DNA of 32,391 bases from a virus, in the IMG/VR virus record IMGVR_UViG_3300042882_000535, positions 1 to 32,391 of that record. The stretch is one strand, 5' to 3'. Positions 21,115-29,942 of the stretch are shown one piece after another (position 1 is the stretch's first letter; each line of letters begins with the position of its first letter). Under the pieces are notes generated by a model. The model had not been told where the DNA came from. It did no database searches and was given only the letters and a program-made list of their open reading frames with translations. The position numbers were made by a program, and so were the translations under genes.

Positions 21115-21409
21115 CAGTCACCTCTTTAAATTTACTAATTATTAGACTAGATTCTTCAACAGAACCTGAAAGCACATTAGATACAAGCACTATCTCAGAA
21201 GGAGTGCACTTTGCCTGGGGACATACTATATTCAATTTAGATACTTCGGGTGGTAAGTTCAAACCTCGTATTACAGCAGCAGACACTATTATTTTATCTG
21301 TCCGTGAGAATGAGATAGTATTCGAAGTATTAGCCATTATAATCAGAGAACTACAAACAATTAAACACCCAATTATTACTAACAACCAGCCAATTGTATT
21401 TTTACTCAT
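21104..21409 (-). CDS. Membrane-anchored hypothetical protein, 101 aa
   Basis: The ATG at 21409 overlaps the end of the zinc-finger gene and has GAGGA upstream. One N-terminal membrane segment (NTIGWLLVIIGCLIVCSSLIIM, about residues 4-25) is followed by a soluble domain of 75 residues with two cysteines. The topology would place the C-terminal part in the periplasm. A lipobox is not convincing. Function unknown. Confidence 0.6.
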   Translation of the reverse strand: MSKNTIGWLLVIIGCLIVCSSLIIMANTSNTISFSRTDKIIVSAAVIRGLNLPPEVSKLNIVCPQAKCTPSEIVLVSNVLSGSVEESSLIISKFKEVTGEQ

Positions 21410-21635
21410 ACAAATCCTCGTAATCATCATAGTCATCATGGAAATCATTCTCTAAAAATATATCTAGGTCTTTGTTATCCTCTTTATCAAACACAGCAGG
21501 ATTTACACCAGAGCCAAGGCAAGACTGACAAAAGGATTCACACTCTGTTTGACTATTTCCAGTACCTTTACAATCTGGACACAGATACGCTTGTAAATTA
21601 TCATCATGTGTACTAGCTACATTAGCAGCATTCAT
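21402..21635 (-). CDS. DnaJ-type zinc-finger protein, 77 aa
   Basis: Two C-x-x-C-x-G-x-G motifs, CPDCKGTG and CQSCLGSG, as in the central zinc domain of DnaJ, separated by 14 residues; the tail is acidic (DDYDDYEDLYE). A perfect ribosome site (AGGAGGT) precedes ATG. Small phage proteins with only this domain are known but uncharacterised. A second protein with the same signature lies in the intron of the nrdJ gene. Confidence 0.7.
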   Translation of the reverse strand: MNAANVASTHDDNLQAYLCPDCKGTGNSQTECESFCQSCLGSGVNPAVFDKEDNKDLDIFLENDFHDDYDDYEDLYE

Positions 21636-23260: not shown

Positions 23261-23316
23261 CATTTTGTTCAACACGATTCGCTAATTCGTGCCCGTCTTT
23301 CGACTGCTACATATCA

Positions 23317-23529
23317 CTATGCAGATCGGACTATATCATCTTGTGACGCGCTTCCACCCGCTTGGGTGTACTCTACTCTTCTACGATTTGAGTTCTCTAA
23401 AAAGTCTGCCCAGGTGTCATTGCCGTCACCATTACAATGGGTACAGTAGATTACACCGTCTCCTGGTTTAGGCTGTTTTACTTTGGGATCTTTTCCCGTA
23501 CCACTACAGTTTGGGCATATACTTCTCAT
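23317..23529 (-). CDS. Intron-encoded DnaJ-type zinc-finger protein, 70 aa
   Basis: The ORF lies between the P7 5' strand and the P7 3' strand of the intron, so it is probably in the P8 or P3-P8 loop. Its last codons overlap the conserved S element. GGAG is well placed before ATG at 23529. Sequence CPNCSGTGKD and CTHCNGDGND are two C-x-x-C-x-G-x-G units; the tail (NRRRVEYTQAGGSASQDD) is soluble. It is not an HNH, GIY-YIG or LAGLIDADG endonuclease. It might assist splicing, be a remnant, or be a passenger. Confidence 0.6.
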   Translation of the reverse strand: MRSICPNCSGTGKDPKVKQPKPGDGVIYCTHCNGDGNDTWADFLENSNRRRVEYTQAGGSASQDDIVRSA

Positions 23530-23568
23530 TAACACTCTCCTATAGAATTTCGATAGTCTCTACACTTT

Positions 23569-23856
23569 CTAAACCCGCCAAGGTTTCTGTTTTAACTTAA
23601 ATCTTTTGTTATTAGCTCGTGAGCGTGTTCCATCTAAATATGTCACATTTGCTGTATCGTTATCCGAAAGTGATTTAGACACTTTGGCATAACGAACACT
23701 CTGAATGAATCTGAATTTAAAACCATCATCATCAAATAATGTATCAGAGATGTTTAGAACTATGTTTATAAAGTCACCTGTAAGCCGACTCCTCATAAGA
23801 GAGCCTACAGCTGGTTGAGTATTTATAGGTGTTTGTTTAAAAATCACTTGACGCAT
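23569..23856 (-). CDS. Intron-encoded hypothetical protein in the P6 loop, 95 aa
   Basis: A basic protein (MRQVIFKQTPINTQ, ending KRFKLKQKPWRV) coded within the loop closed by the 12-bp P6 stem. Its stop codon overlaps the P6 3' strand. A strong ribosome site (GAGGAG) precedes ATG. It has a beta-rich middle (FRFIQSVRYAKVSKSL). No endonuclease or maturase motif is recognised. The good start signal suggests that it is really translated. Confidence 0.65.
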   Translation of the reverse strand: MRQVIFKQTPINTQPAVGSLMRSRLTGDFINIVLNISDTLFDDDGFKFRFIQSVRYAKVSKSLSDNDTANVTYLDGTRSRANNKRFKLKQKPWRV

Positions 23857-23979
23857 TTATGACACTCCTCTAGTAGTCATGTCAGTTAATATACAACTTG
23901 GCGGGTCTAGCTTAGCTCGGGATTGCCTACGTGAGGTGTTCCCCGAATTCACGTCATTTTAAATCCGCCTGCTAGTGAA

Positions 23980-25018
23980 ACGGATTATATCCAACTACTT
24001 TTGGATCAGGATATCTAGTATCACCTAATCTACCAACTTTTCTAGAGAGTTCTGGGTTTATCAGACCATAACACTCTCCATTGCCTTTATAGCCTTCCCA
24101 GAAGTATTCGTGCAAATCCTCTAGATCGCTACAAGCAACACTGTTATTACTCATAGCGCGCCAAGGTGGAATATTGCCTAAGTCCCAACGTTTGGCCAAC
24201 AAATATTCAATATCATCAGGATCACCAATGCACAACAAAGCAGATCGCCTAACGTTGCCTGCAACTATTATTGCAGCAATGATATTCATGACATCCAAAC
24301 AATCGATAGGCCTTACACTACGACCGCGACGTTTCATCAAGACTTCTGAAATTTGCTGAAGACCTCTGCATAAATCTTCAGGCCCAGAAGCCACCCCGCC
24401 AAATCCTTTGATTGGTGTACCTTTACCACGTATAGCTTGTGTTGAGTACGTAAAGGTTCCCTTCTCAGCAGAATCACTCAAGAAAGCTGCTTTCAGGGTC
24501 TTACCTAAGAACCTTACCCAACCCTCACGCGAGTCTGGTATGATGAAATCAGCACCACCGTGATCAACTCGTGTAGGGGGTTTAAACCAAGATTTAACAG
24601 GAGGTAGCTTTTCAACATATTGTCGTTGAATGCTAAAACCTACACCGCAGCCTAATCCTAGCATATCCATGGCCCAACAGAAAGGTCTGACAGGGCTGTC
24701 TATCACCTTAAACGCGCAGTTTTGCAAAGAAGATAATCCTAAACGATCAACTGTAGGAGTTCCTAATTGCCACAAGAATCTGCCAGCAGGAAATGCTTTT
24801 AGCTGTAGCATATATTCTGCTAACCTTATTGCTTCATCTTTCGAGAAGACACCGCCTAGCTGGGTTTCAGAGGCGTTTATTATCCGTAATATCGTATCCG
24901 GCCATTCTTCTTGCTGACCGTTTTCCATTTTGCGACTATATGTTCGCTTGTAGGTAAGGTAACCGACAGTAGACCACGGAGTCTCAATTTTTGGCAAATC
25001 GTTAATAGTTAGTTGCAT
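23980..25018 (-). CDS. nrdJ: Class II ribonucleotide reductase (NrdJ), exon 1
   Basis: The 5' exon encodes 346 residues plus the first base of codon 347. In unspliced RNA the frame stops at 23972 after Y-N-P-F-H. It contains the redox cysteine Cys101 (LQNCAF), the NVRRSA and SNNSVA stretches conserved in adenosylcobalamin-dependent RTP reductases, and ends GYNP just before the radical cysteine. The enzyme reduces ribonucleoside triphosphates to deoxy forms using B12, without a second subunit, supplying dNTPs for phage replication. Absence of NrdB-like genes here fits the monomeric class, though the window is partial. Start overlaps the preceding gene by 17 bases; AAAGG lies upstream. Confidence 0.92.
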
Positions 25019-26020: not shown

Positions 26021-28648
26021 CTAATCAAATGAAGTTACTTGGGTATCCACTGGGTATAATCGACCAGTAGCTATTTTATAAGTTGCAGCTCCAGCCATTC
26101 CAGTTAAGCCAGTATATCTACATTTTAATACTGAAAATTGCATTGTGTTCTTTTCTTCAACAGTCTCAGCCATTAAGTTTCTAGCAAATCCGATAACATC
26201 AAATGAGATTTGCTTGATTGAGCCTGAGTTGTGAGTTATTATATGATTACCTAGTAGAAAACGGGAATTACCATCGAGTACAAAACCATAGTAAGGCTGT
26301 TTATCTAGCTTCTCTACAATTATGCCTCGTTTCAACGCATCACATGCTCTCAGAACCTTATTAGACTTTTGACAAGGTATTTTTGAAATATTACCAGATA
26401 TCATAACTTGATAGATAATAGTGCCATTTGAACTATAAGCACCCTTTATAGTCTGAGCACGTAAGTTGCTATACAAACCTAAGGACCTAGCGATATCACG
26501 AACATCACTTGCAAGTTTGTAATCTTTTTGGTAAAAGTAAAAATTCTCGTCTCTATTAGAGTAAGAACCGTCAGTGTCTAGTAGTCCAGCTAACAGTTGT
26601 AAGCGATCTTCGATAGAGCTATAACGATACTGCACAGGAATATGTTTGTTATTCAACACGTTAAGACTTCTTAACTTCTCCAACATCTCTCCTTTTTCAT
26701 TCGTTATGAAGTTGACATACTCTCTTTTACGGTTATTAGGCCAGGAAATCTTAGCCTCAATTTCATCAGCAACCCTTTGTGCAATGCCCAGCTCACTTGC
26801 ATCCATGATCCTAAATGCGGATTTTGAGCCATCACCAAGCCATGCTCCGAATGCATATGGTGGAATTAACAATTCTCTTTTAGGTAACTCATATCCAGAG
26901 GAATAATGCATCTTACAACGTTCTTGGTAGTTGGCAGATTTTTCTAAGAACTCCTTTACAGAAATATCAAAGATACGGTTGTTGTGTGAAAGCGTCAGCA
27001 CATGATCTTCATTACATATAAAAGAATCTTTAGAAGTCTTCATACTAATCCTATACATCTGCTGCTCCCCTCTAGCGAGTCTTAATACATTTCTAGGAGT
27101 ACCATCGTCACCCATTAGTTGCATTCCAACATCTACATCCTGTACAGGAATCTTGCTTCCATTGTATAACAATACCTTGGTATTAAGCGCTAAACAACCT
27201 TTTATGTCATCTAAGGAAGGCATCCGACCCTCTTCAAATGATTTACCACCAAATGAGGCTTTGCGTAAATGCGATATAAGTCCTATCCAAACTTCTGGAT
27301 ATTTCTTCACGAGACGTAATAAGTCATTCATTACTTTATCAATGGCTTCATTACCGGTAAGATCGCCTGCACCTTCAGATACAAGTATCGTAATATGATC
27401 CAAGTATATATGTTTACAACCTAACAATATCATATACTCTAGTTTGTCTACAATACCTTCATCATCAATAGAGCCTTGATGATCCAATAAGACAATCCGG
27501 TCATCTTTCCAAAGTTCATCAAAACCTTGTTTAAGATCTTCGATCGGTATTTCCTCATAAGCAGGATTTCGATTGATGGCCATGCCAGCCAATTTCCTAC
27601 CAGTCTCAGCTGGAGCTTCTTCCAGAGAAACTACACCGACCATATCATCAGTGATTTCCAAAGTATGTATTAAGTCTTCTCTCAATACCGTACTCTTACC
27701 TGTACTGGTTCCTGATATAAACAGCGCAATCTCACCACCACGCTTCCCTTTGGTCTTAGCGTTAACACCTCCGATACATGGTGGATACGGTATAGATTTT
27801 CGGGAGTTGTATTCGACTAGCTGCTTCCATACCTGATCACCTGTTAAAATGCCAGCAGGAGTTATTCTAGCAGCATCAAATACAGACTGCATAAGAGCTT
27901 TGGCACCCAAATTTCGCAATACATCTGACGCATCATTAAGCGGTAACTTTACTTTTCTTGCTTTGTCATACCCAATAACCTTCAGCAGTTCTGAAACAGC
28001 CTCTGCACCAGCCTCATCTTCATCCATCATTATTACAACTTCATCGAATGATCGTATGAATTCTCGATGAGCCATTGAAGATTTGTGAGCAATCGAGGAG
28101 GATGATAGGGCAACTACAGGATAGAATTTATTGTAATGCTCGAAAGATGCTTGAGCTACACTAAGACAATCTATTTCACCTTCTGTGATTACTAGACGTT
28201 TTCCACCAGGTTGAAATCGATCAATTCCAAATAAATTAGATGATTTACCATTTGCCCAATAAAAATTCTTATCAGCTACACGTCTCACCTTAAAGCATGT
28301 ATCTAACGCATACGGATAATGATGATGAGTAATATCGCCATCTTCATTAAATGCCAAAGTCACCTTATAAAATGCGGCAACTTCTTTTGATATCTTCCGA
28401 TCTCTAATGGCATGCGATTTGAATGCATCGGGATTGAACGGTGGCCGTAACTCCTTAGGACTTACAGGGGCTCTGGGAGCATCTCCAGTTTTATCTCTAA
28501 CATTTCCATCTAAATCAAAGTGACCAGGTCTCTCATAATGACCACAATCCGCAGCGTAACAATAAGCAGAGCCGTCATCGTATATCTTCCAGCCTTGCTT
28601 ACTATCACACTTGGGACAAGGTTGATCAGCTACAACTATCGTTCCCAT
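26021..28648 (-). CDS. Primase-helicase (T7 gp4 type) interrupted by an intein
   Basis: An 875-residue precursor; 552 residues after splicing, close to the 566 of T7 gp4. The N-terminal zinc finger has Cys11, Cys14, Cys30 and Cys35. The TOPRIM primase centre has TEGE (155-158) and MMDEDEAG (207-214). The helicase domain has Walker A GTSTGKST (313-320), a Walker B-type IYLDH (414-418), and ISHLRK (458-463). The intein occupies residues 485-807, between DDIKG and SGSIKQ, in the conserved DNA-contact loop. The enzyme unwinds DNA at the fork and makes RNA primers for the phage polymerase. Ribosome site weak; ATG overlaps the previous stop. Confidence 0.93.
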   Translation of the reverse strand: MGTIVVADQPCPKCDSKQGWKIYDDGSAYCYAADCGHYERPGHFDLDGNVRDKTGDAPRAPVSPKELRPPFNPDAFKSHAIRDRKISKEVAAFYKVTLAFNEDGDITHHHYPYALDTCFKVRRVADKNFYWANGKSSNLFGIDRFQPGGKRLVITEGEIDCLSVAQASFEHYNKFYPVVALSSSSIAHKSSMAHREFIRSFDEVVIMMDEDEAGAEAVSELLKVIGYDKARKVKLPLNDASDVLRNLGAKALMQSVFDAARITPAGILTGDQVWKQLVEYNSRKSIPYPPCIGGVNAKTKGKRGGEIALFISGTSTGKSTVLREDLIHTLEITDDMVGVVSLEEAPAETGRKLAGMAINRNPAYEEIPIEDLKQGFDELWKDDRIVLLDHQGSIDDEGIVDKLEYMILLGCKHIYLDHITILVSEGAGDLTGNEAIDKVMNDLLRLVKKYPEVWIGLISHLRKASFGGKSFEEGRMPSLDDIKGCLALNTKVLLYNGSKIPVQDVDVGMQLMGDDGTPRNVLRLARGEQQMYRISMKTSKDSFICNEDHVLTLSHNNRIFDISVKEFLEKSANYQERCKMHYSSGYELPKRELLIPPYAFGAWLGDGSKSAFRIMDASELGIAQRVADEIEAKISWPNNRKREYVNFITNEKGEMLEKLRSLNVLNNKHIPVQYRYSSIEDRLQLLAGLLDTDGSYSNRDENFYFYQKDYKLASDVRDIARSLGLYSNLRAQTIKGAYSSNGTIIYQVMISGNISKIPCQKSNKVLRACDALKRGIIVEKLDKQPYYGFVLDGNSRFLLGNHIITHNSGSIKQISFDVIGFARNLMAETVEEKNTMQFSVLKCRYTGLTGMAGAATYKIATGRLYPVDTQVTSFD
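26228..27196 (-). mobile_element. Intein with LAGLIDADG homing endonuclease
   Basis: Residues 485-807 of the primase-helicase precursor (323 aa). It begins CLALNTKVLLYNG (Cys1 nucleophile) and ends HIITHN followed by Ser, the standard His-Asn/Ser splice junction. Block B reads CNEDHV with His549, but has Asn where Thr is usual. Two LAGLIDADG-type motifs, AFGAWLGDG (599-607) and LAGLLDTDG (686-694), identify a two-motif homing endonuclease with both acidic residues retained. Splicing should join DDIKG to SGSIKQ. The site is near, but two residues from, the known site in cyanobacterial DnaB (by my recall). Confidence 0.93.
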
Positions 28649-29088
28649 ATCAATAAGTGCTCATGTTTGCCAATCGCTTTCCAAAAGCTATTCCAATTTT
28701 TCACAATAACCTTATTAATCTCCTCATTTACTTTGAAAGTTATACTCTCAATCCTTGTGTTATAAAATTCATTTGATAACGGTACACAAGAGAGTGTTTG
28801 AAGAAAAGTCTCAGCCCATGCTAGCCCGCCCAATGTAGTACATTCGCCTAAGACAATGAAGTCAAATTCAGAAGCAGGTCTGATTGCCAGATGATCCTTC
28901 AACTCTTTACAAGAAGTCTTATAAGTCCTCCAATCAGATTCTTCTCCCTTCTTCAAGCCTCTTTTAACTTTATAGGACTTCTTACCAATGTAGTACCGTT
29001 TAGCCCACTTATCATGCACTATGTATACAAAGCCTAGATAAGGTTTTTGTCCCATTTGGCGGTCGTATTTCCATACACCATTATTCAT
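28636..29088 (-). CDS. SegE-like GIY-YIG family nuclease
   Basis: A 150-residue protein with FVYIVHDKWAKRYYIGKKS near residue 20, a version of the G-(I/F)-(V)-Y...Y-I-G core, then YKTSCKELKDHL and GLAWAETFLQTL. This matches from memory the SegE-like GIY-YIG domain of T4-related phage endonucleases. The usual catalytic Arg and Glu may be R76-like and E105-like positions but cannot be fixed by eye. A position between flap exonuclease and primase-helicase suggests either a structural nuclease of recombination/host DNA breakdown or a free-standing homing endonuclease. AAGGAG lies before ATG at 29088, which overlaps the previous stop. Confidence 0.6.
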   Translation of the reverse strand: MNNGVWKYDRQMGQKPYLGFVYIVHDKWAKRYYIGKKSYKVKRGLKKGEESDWRTYKTSCKELKDHLAIRPASEFDFIVLGECTTLGGLAWAETFLQTLSCVPLSNEFYNTRIESITFKVNEEINKVIVKNWNSFWKAIGKHEHLLIWER

Positions 29089-29942
29089 CGCATCTCCTTT
29101 GCTACAGGCCACTCATCAAAAGAAAAGAAATCAGAAGGGTGTCGTAGTATGTGTAGCAATTTCGCATTTGATAGCAAGTACTCCGCCCACAAATTCTTAT
29201 ACTTATCGATATACATGCTAACAACTAACTCTTGCATGGCAGCTTCATTTCCAAGAGGTACACTCTTTATTAGCTTATCAGCTGTCTTTGGGCCGATACC
29301 GGGCAATCCGGGAATGTGATCCACTAAGTCACCCTGTAGCATTTGACCATAATACAGATCCAAAGCCTCTTCACGACTAATAGTATATCTAGTGCCTTTT
29401 ATAGGATTATGATGTCGACCTTCTATGCAGTTGAGATCTTTATCGCCTGAACATACAACAAAAGGCTTTCCAATAGCACGACACTGCTCTGCCCATATTC
29501 GTACTAGATCATCTGCTTCCATCCAATCTGCCTTTACCATGAATTCAGGAAACTCTTGTTCCATGTATTCAGTTAGCATTGCGACCCATTGATAGCGATC
29601 AGGGCTTCTATCTTGTCTAGCGAGTTTATAATCAGGAAAGATTTCTGATCTAAAGTTAGTGGAAGACTTTACGGCAAATAAATACTCATCTGTAAAGTAT
29701 GTCTCACATATCTCTGTAACCAAATCCATTACAGATTTTGCAGATTTTCTTATGAAAGAATGCACCTCATCATAGTCAAAAGATATATCTTCGAGTGCTA
29801 TCTCTGAAACATCTACTCCTGTTGCTTCTGCCAACTCTTTCTTCTTAACTTCATATATCGGTTTTAGAATTCTACGAGAGCCCTCATGCAATACCATGTC
29901 ACCATCAAATATTACTACAGTATCAGCGATTGACACGACCAT
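29085..29942 (-). CDS. 5'-3' exonuclease, flap/T7 gp6 type
   Basis: A 285-residue FEN-family nuclease. Metal-binding acidic motifs: FDGDMV (13-18), EADDLV near 143, CSGDKDL near 166, and GDLVDHIPG near 206. A helix-3-turn-helix DNA-binding element follows (GLPGIGPKTADKLI). It removes RNA primers and flaps and may degrade host DNA. Overlaps the MazG-like gene by 20 bases. The start must lie before FDGD, and the ATG at 29942 is the only good candidate. Confidence 0.9.
   Translation of the reverse strand: MVVSIADTVVIFDGDMVLHEGSRRILKPIYEVKKKELAEATGVDVSEIALEDISFDYDEVHSFIRKSAKSVMDLVTEICETYFTDEYLFAVKSSTNFRSEIFPDYKLARQDRSPDRYQWVAMLTEYMEQEFPEFMVKADWMEADDLVRIWAEQCRAIGKPFVVCSGDKDLNCIEGRHHNPIKGTRYTISREEALDLYYGQMLQGDLVDHIPGLPGIGPKTADKLIKSVPLGNEAAMQELVVSMYIDKYKNLWAEYLLSNAKLLHILRHPSDFFSFDEWPVAKEMR

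Follow-up and report, generated by a model that had tools for sequence, protein, structure and literature searches.

Introns in phage ribonucleotide reductase (RNR) genes are well known, and a further one is not new in kind. Split RNR genes were reported in 16 of 128 RNR-containing phage genomes, two nrdJ genes among them, and phage Twort carries two nrdE introns at or near conserved RNR residues (PMC3653736; here and below, PMC numbers refer to the accessible parts of these papers). More than 100 group I introns have been curated in the RNR entries of RNRdb (PMC2795772), and a likely intein in the NrdJ of phage G20c has been mentioned, with no position given (PMC6459318). Conserved codons are considered good homing targets in which only exact loss is tolerated (PMC2814812), and many group I introns have an early in-frame stop, seen as stalling ribosomes so that the intron can fold (PMC3984707). 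We studied a stretch of viral DNA of 32,391 nucleotides, hereafter the window (IMG/VR record IMGVR_UViG_3300042882_000535, positions 1 to 32,391), in which nrdJ (25018-22371, minus strand) is split by a 719-nt element at 23979-23261. We consider it very probable, from sequence comparison, that this element is a group IA-type self-splicing intron splitting the codon for the catalytic cysteine of a class II phage reductase. An earlier note on this DNA had implied a greater rarity than is warranted, since phage RNR introns have been published (PMC3653736, PMC2795772) and eight other phages were found interrupted at the same codon (see below). The gene is arranged as follows (a slash marks a junction).

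23980 to 25018, minus strand: nrdJ exon 1, an open frame of 346 codons followed by T, which opens the Cys347 codon
23261 to 23979, minus strand: predicted group IA-type intron, 719 nt, terminal G at 23261 (empty site in relatives, covariation, blastn matches to phage introns)
22371 to 23260, minus strand: nrdJ exon 2, starting with the GT of the Cys347 codon

Joining 23980 to 23260 produced a single open frame of 642 aa in which NPCAEQ corresponds to residues 345-350 and the Cys347 codon is split T/GT, with T from exon 1 and GT from exon 2; without splicing, the frame runs for two codons of intron and then stops (NPFH, stop). The spliced NrdJ matched the Lactobacillus leichmannii enzyme RTPR (1L1L) at E=1e-68 (phmmer), and the alignment placed NPCAEQSLEDFETCC of the window NrdJ opposite NPCGEISLANGEPCN of 1L1L. 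Cys347, the Glu at +2 residues and the Cys at +11 residues all matched, with NPCAEQ opposite the NPCGE loop, and the C-terminal Cys pair was conserved (CEkGACP). Both PF17975 and PF21995 scored above cut-off (Pfam). The gene thus presents the marks of a monomeric class II NrdJ, namely the N-x-C-x-E loop, the second active-site Cys, the C-terminal Cys pair and the insertion domain, and by its sequence it is a class II (monomeric, B12-dependent) ribonucleotide reductase gene, nrdJ. We take the aligned residues in the L. leichmannii enzyme to be Cys408, Glu410 and Cys419; Cys408 of that reductase forms the thiyl radical. Identity of the spliced NrdJ was 65-69% with six phage relatives and 36% with two others. 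Over 306 codons of exon 1, the near relative L040, which ends before the splice site, showed 64 synonymous and 2 nonsynonymous codon differences, which argues that the reductase has been kept by purifying selection. The same sequence was present in two further contigs, one identical over 8645 bp (L038) and the other with 1 mismatch (L037).

The elements recognised in the intron, in 5' to 3' order of the transcript, were:

23962 to 23968, minus strand: P1 internal guide GCGGAUU, which pairs with exon AAUCCGU (23986-23980) in 7 pairs, with U.G at the 5' splice site
23950 to 23956, minus strand: P3 5' strand UGACGUG (both sides change in 4 of 7 pairs, 13 introns)
23917 to 23946, minus strand: P4-P5 region, UCGGG...CCCGA, with P5 CCU/AGG (both sides change in 1 of 5 P4 pairs and 2 of 3 P5 pairs)
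23897 to 23910, minus strand: P6a 5' strand CUAGACCCGCCAAG, 14 bp, present in the minimum free energy (MFE) fold of the trimmed core
23569 to 23582, minus strand: P6a 3' strand CUUGGCGGGUUUAG, doubling as coding sequence for the end of ORF1 (PWRV, stop)
23553 to 23558, minus strand: P7 5' strand GACUAU, complementary to the 3' strand, invariant in 13 introns
23379 to 23547, minus strand: predicted P7.1, UUCUAU (23547-23542) with GUAGAA (23384-23379), its loop containing most of ORF2
23355 to 23368, minus strand: P7.2 hairpin CACCCAAGCGGGUG, found in the core comparison
23344 to 23350, minus strand: P3 3' strand CGCGUCA, pairing with UGACGUG, with covariation
23335 to 23343, minus strand: CAAGAUGAU, 9 nt between P3' and P7' at the P8 position, with no P8 hairpin
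23329 to 23334, minus strand: P7 3' strand AUAGUC, complementary to the 5' strand, invariant in 13 introns
23273 to 23324, minus strand: P9 (23324-23307), P9.1 (23304-23295) and P9.2 (23291-23273); in P9 both sides change in 5 of 7 pairs

P7.1 and P7.2 between P7 and P3' are a mark of IA group I introns, and PMC3984707 counts them among the features of the class. No P2 was seen in the window intron. A motif scan for P7.2 retrieved 95 stretches of viral contigs, and covariation was evaluated on 13 cores without their ORF loops, one near-duplicate (L103) having been dropped from 14. The named structure (33 pairs) was paired in 98.4% of 429 cells and both sides changed in 12 of the 33 pairs, most of the covariation coming from P3 and P9. 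None of 500 shuffles scored as high for paired percentage, pair count or covariation score, and one of 500 did so for the number of pair types; when the 33-pair structure was slid, pairing dropped to 30-44%. P3, P4, P7 and P9 were fully paired in all 13 sequences, the window intron included, and P5 in only 82.1% of cells. A first P3 pairing, GUGAAUUC with GAGUACAC, contained an A.A mismatch and was discarded, the relatives giving the covarying UGACGUG/CGCGUCA instead. The trimmed core, with GAAA replacing both ORF loops, folded at z = -5.6. In its MFE fold the guide pairs with the P7'/P9 region and P1 is not formed, which counts slightly against the assignment. Note that in this fold the guide and P1 loop (23979-23962) can pair with about 23333-23313 (P7'/P9), an alternative that would hide the guide.

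Blastn with the intron found matches in 250 phage records at E<=1, with the element of PPWS1 and the DNA polymerase intron of PhAPEC5 among the matches listed. The Rfam scan of the window returned nothing at or above threshold: RF00028 scored the intron at 21.3 bits (E=0.0058), below its gathering threshold of 50. This score is not decisive, because the ORF-carrying relatives PPWS1 (24.7 bits) and PhAPEC5 (38.0 bits), each with an endonuclease ORF, were also below 50 and the ORF-free introns of L105, L110 and L119 reached 78-87 bits. The earlier note had named the lack of a group I covariance hit as an outcome that would speak against it; at face value the sub-threshold score goes halfway to that outcome, but two ORF-carrying relatives fall short as well. 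Its central claim, that a group I intron splits the predicted thiyl-radical Cys codon of a class II reductase, was supported by the spliced frame, the alignment to 1L1L and the covarying core. Its junctions at 23980 and 23260 were exact, its Cys, Glu and second Cys at the L. leichmannii spacing were aligned in phmmer, and the P1, P6, P7 and terminal G that it named were all present; P3, P7.1, P7.2 and P9-P9.2 as well as the absence of P8 come in addition to its list.

P8 is a usual core helix of group I introns, and is not defining by itself. In the window intron and its near-copies L090 and L158, 15 nt separate the P7.2 motif from P7' and the longest stem there is 2 bp, versus 23-45 nt and a stem of at least 4 bp in all the other parsed copies of the subfamily (91 of 91), many of which are related and hence do not amount to 91 independent cases. 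The count covers all 95 stretches and the window, in total 99 copies with 5 unparsed, four of these five being one sequence with an apparent stem. The loss of P8 could impair splicing. No phage precedent for group I introns without P8 was recognised in the accessible parts of the literature.

Two ORFs lie inside the intron, each start preceded by a predicted ribosome-binding site, AGGAG:

23569 to 23856, minus strand: ORF1, 95 aa, in the P6 loop, belonging to a phage gene family but shortened (HMM E=4e-12)
23317 to 23529, minus strand: ORF2, 70 aa from ATG (72 from GTG at 23535), CxxC zinc-finger-like, weak DnaJ_CXXCXGXG match

In L012, whose nrdJ is uninterrupted, the gene that directly follows nrdJ (144 aa) matched ORF1. 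When that gene was used as query against whole records of 50 nrdJ loci (48 records), it was found in 7 of the 48 at E<=0.1, two of the seven being near-copies of the window; in L315, L316 and L318 the family member stood among other ORFs and no intron was seen around it. An HMM built from the four free-standing homologues placed ORF1 at the top of 457 window frames (E=4e-12, 41.4 bits; hmmsearch), the next frame being at 0.77. Compared with these four relatives ORF1 lacks 43-51 residues, the C-terminal part being absent, and its last codons also form the 14-bp P6a on the 3' side. No second ORF1 copy was present in the near-copies G001 and G018. ORF1 had no Pfam match at E<=1 and no PHROG match at E<=0.1; its best PDB match by sequence had an E of 0.44, and AlphaFold of ORF1, run with two sequences, gave a mean pLDDT of 48. 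ORF2 starts in the P7.1 loop, then crosses P7.2, P3' and P7' and ends in P9. Its match to DnaJ_CXXCXGXG (E=0.0012) was below the Pfam cut-off, and its matches in the 48 phage records were identical copies or else had E values of only 0.02-0.04 and were disregarded. A second small CxxC protein is encoded downstream of nrdJ (window 21402-21635, minus strand) and matched phrog_6060 (anti-termination protein Q-like) at E=1.2e-5. Neither ORF1 nor ORF2 matched an endonuclease family in Pfam or PHROGs. In close-match scans of viral contigs both were found beyond the window only in two near-identical contigs, and tblastn detected neither in 50,697 phage records. Two regulatory signals were considered and set aside: an ORF1 ribosome-binding site hidden in a hairpin (z -2.3 in the 25-mer, but z -0.9 in the 51-mer), and a promoter within the intron (one match versus 2.5 expected, on the other strand). 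The accessible parts of the literature yielded no phage precedent that we recognised for non-homing cargo in introns.

The Cys codon was found interrupted in eight other phages: L044, L045, L053, L272, L273, L282, L287 and Pseudaeromonas phage KLEP7. The insertion lies within the codon in L044, L273, L282, KLEP7 and, as far as seen, L287, and flush before it in L045, L053 and L272. All have U at -1, and the seven seen whole have a terminal G, L287 being cut by the contig end. When the Pro codon is CCG (window, L044, L282 and KLEP7 among the cases) the junction is CCG-T/GT, inside the Cys codon, with guide GCGG; when it is CCT (L045, L053, L272) the junction is CCT/TGT, one base earlier, with guide GGGG or GGGA (pairing by eye). 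Junction and guide thus shift with the Pro codon so that U-1 is retained. The insertions of L044, L045, L053, L272, L273 and L287 are mutually alike (67-76% over 562-796 nt), and those of L282 and KLEP7 share shorter stretches with these six. Similarity between the window intron and the same-site insertions is limited to 30-34 nt around P7'/P9, so that, judged by sequence, the same codon is occupied by two intron lineages with little in common.

The L045 insertion carries a LAGLIDADG ORF (PF03161, E=4e-17), and those of L282 (249 nt) and KLEP7 (230 nt) are too compact to encode an endonuclease. Seven of the eight insertions were scanned with Rfam. RF00028 scored 30.8-43.8 bits on L044, L045, L053 and L272 and 31.5 bits on L273, all below 50; L282, without a match at E<=0.1 in an earlier scan, scored 37.1 bits when 321 nt were scanned (E=3.8e-8). 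The KLEP7 insert gave no match, even in a 301-nt scan, and its case therefore rests on the junctions and on 69 nt that match L273 at 81%. It was deposited as part of a locus with two reductase genes, yet the sequence reads as one interrupted gene:

L326 1145-1375 (OM654377.1): KLEP7 insert of 230 nt inside that Cys codon; the deposited record has gp198 and gp197 as two separate reductase genes

Relatives carry the exact uninterrupted site. Two (L053 and L273) of 112 distinct sequences across the site, from the loci of the NrdJ scans, were interrupted. In an unbiased set of 80 loci, six were interrupted, 73 uninterrupted and one ended short of the site; this is the only set neutral on interruption, the others being ranked so that uninterrupted genes are favoured, and its query was an intron-bearing gene whose own contig is among the six. 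On a FastTree phylogeny of 99 NrdJ the nine interrupted rows required nine changes, the scatter that homing would be expected to leave, with long branches and with the position of L326 above all uncertain.

Other mobile elements were found at or near the corresponding residues. In Thermus phage G20c NrdJ (L312) the same cysteine is immediately preceded by an intein, NP/CAE. In Staphylococcus phage SEP9 (L325 2488-3394) an intron with a GIY-YIG ORF is inserted in the class I nrdE flush after the codon of the NLC cysteine (SSNLC/TEIAQ), which we take to be the catalytic one; it matched the window intron and the same-site nrdJ introns over short stretches and gave no RF00028 match at E<=0.1. Other inteins or intein-like insertions were seen elsewhere: a second nrdJ interruption, an apparent intein, in the KPSG/T motif of L272 (6648-7732) and L282 (6093-7177), where the Cys-codon intron is present too; an intein-like insertion at the Cys pair just past the NPCSEQ loop of a distant NrdJ (L056 3254-4266); and, in the window, a LAGLIDADG intein at 26228-27196 in a primase-helicase gene (26021-28648, minus strand; DDIKG/C...HN/SGSIKQ; Hom_end_hint E=1.6e-21).

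Guanosine-initiated splicing in the cell would join T to GT and restore NPCAEQ; unspliced RNA would give an N-terminal fragment ending in NPFH, without the catalytic cysteine. In making dNTP supply depend on splicing the earlier note goes beyond the evidence, a step that would also need the phage to rely on its own enzyme and not on the host's. Reuse of the site may reflect homing elements that target, and persist in, DNA that cannot change, the empty site presumably being regained only through exact loss. The window intron, with no recognisable homing endonuclease, houses a phage gene family member in its P6 loop and a zinc-finger-like ORF in its P7.1 loop. Ribosomes translating ORF2 would pass through the 3' half of the ribozyme core and unfold it, so any one RNA should face a competition between ORF2 translation and splicing. 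Tentatively, and with considerable doubt, we suggest that a P8-less intron traded its homing endonuclease for ordinary phage genes, holding the sole detected copy of a gene that relatives carry free-standing, and that ribosomes on ORF2 block splicing, each transcript giving either NrdJ or the nested proteins.

The absence of P8, against a stem in 91 of 91 other parsed copies, together with a shortened ORF1 and no recognisable endonuclease within the intron, would also be expected of an intron in decay that has lost P8 and its homing endonuclease and splices poorly or not at all, NrdJ becoming a pseudogene. We regard this as quite improbable: both nrdJ exons are intact with their active-site residues aligned, the differences from L040 in exon 1 are 64 synonymous to 2 nonsynonymous, P3, P4, P7 and P9 are fully paired in 13 of 13 sequences, the window included, and the sequence is common to three contigs. 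That the two halves might be translated separately and assemble with no RNA splicing is conceivable given the working split reductase reported for nrdA of Aeromonas phage Aeh1 (PMC3653736), and a TTG in exon 2 can open a 291-aa ORF; since the Cys codon is split, however, neither half would have the catalytic cysteine, no ribosome-binding site was seen before this TTG, and a group I core lies between the halves, all of which makes such an arrangement extremely unlikely.

A different matter, compatible with splicing, is how the intron moves. Its endonuclease could be encoded elsewhere, for instance by the free-standing gene at 28636-29112 (minus strand), which matched SegE_GIY-YIG (PF19835) at E=1.1e-15, and collaborative homing of this sort has been described for endonuclease-less introns (PMC2814812). 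However, SegE-like genes are also present in L026, L007 and L019, where nrdJ is uninterrupted, so their presence does not track the intron and we think this source of mobility quite unlikely. A codon for an irreplaceable residue that has been hit by two intron lineages, and elsewhere by an intein, offers a natural setting in which to test why mobile elements stay at immutable sites. The window intron further makes it possible to ask whether P8 is dispensable for a working group I core, and whether ordinary genes can come to be housed in phage introns as they are in fungal mitochondrial ones (PMC3562157).

We recognised no report of a group I intron in the catalytic Cys codon of NrdJ in a literature coverage mostly without subscription papers, which does not establish absence. 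Three aspects appear new to us: another intron lineage at this codon, inside it or immediately ahead of it, in eight phages, plus the G20c intein; a P8-less intron in a subfamily that otherwise has a stem there; and an intron with no recognisable homing endonuclease whose P6 loop houses a shortened version of a phage gene found free-standing in relatives. Among the blastn matches listed, the introns of PPWS1 and PhAPEC5 share the core motifs of the window intron (identity of 73.8% across 20% of the query for PPWS1 and 84.2% across 9% for PhAPEC5) and, by our own reading, P7.1, P7.2 and an ORF in the P6 loop; the PhAPEC5 element is annotated as an intron and that of PPWS1 is not. They differ in lying in other host genes and in having annotated endonucleases and a P8 hairpin, whereas the window intron has neither endonuclease nor P8. 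The same-site nrdJ insertions differ from it in carrying a LAGLIDADG ORF (L045) or in being compact (L282, KLEP7). The SEP9 nrdE intron is likewise at or near a conserved RNR residue, but in a class I enzyme, two bases downstream and with a GIY-YIG/I-TevI-like endonuclease. The G20c intein shares the Cys boundary of the window intron, but is removed by protein and not RNA splicing. A parallel for the cargo is the fungal mitochondrial LSU rRNA intron with a ribosomal protein S5 gene, which, in the accessible part of its description, is also an endonuclease-free group I intron with an ordinary gene in a peripheral loop (PMC3562157); there the setting is mitochondrial rRNA and the P8 loop, whereas in the window it is a phage protein gene and the P6 loop.
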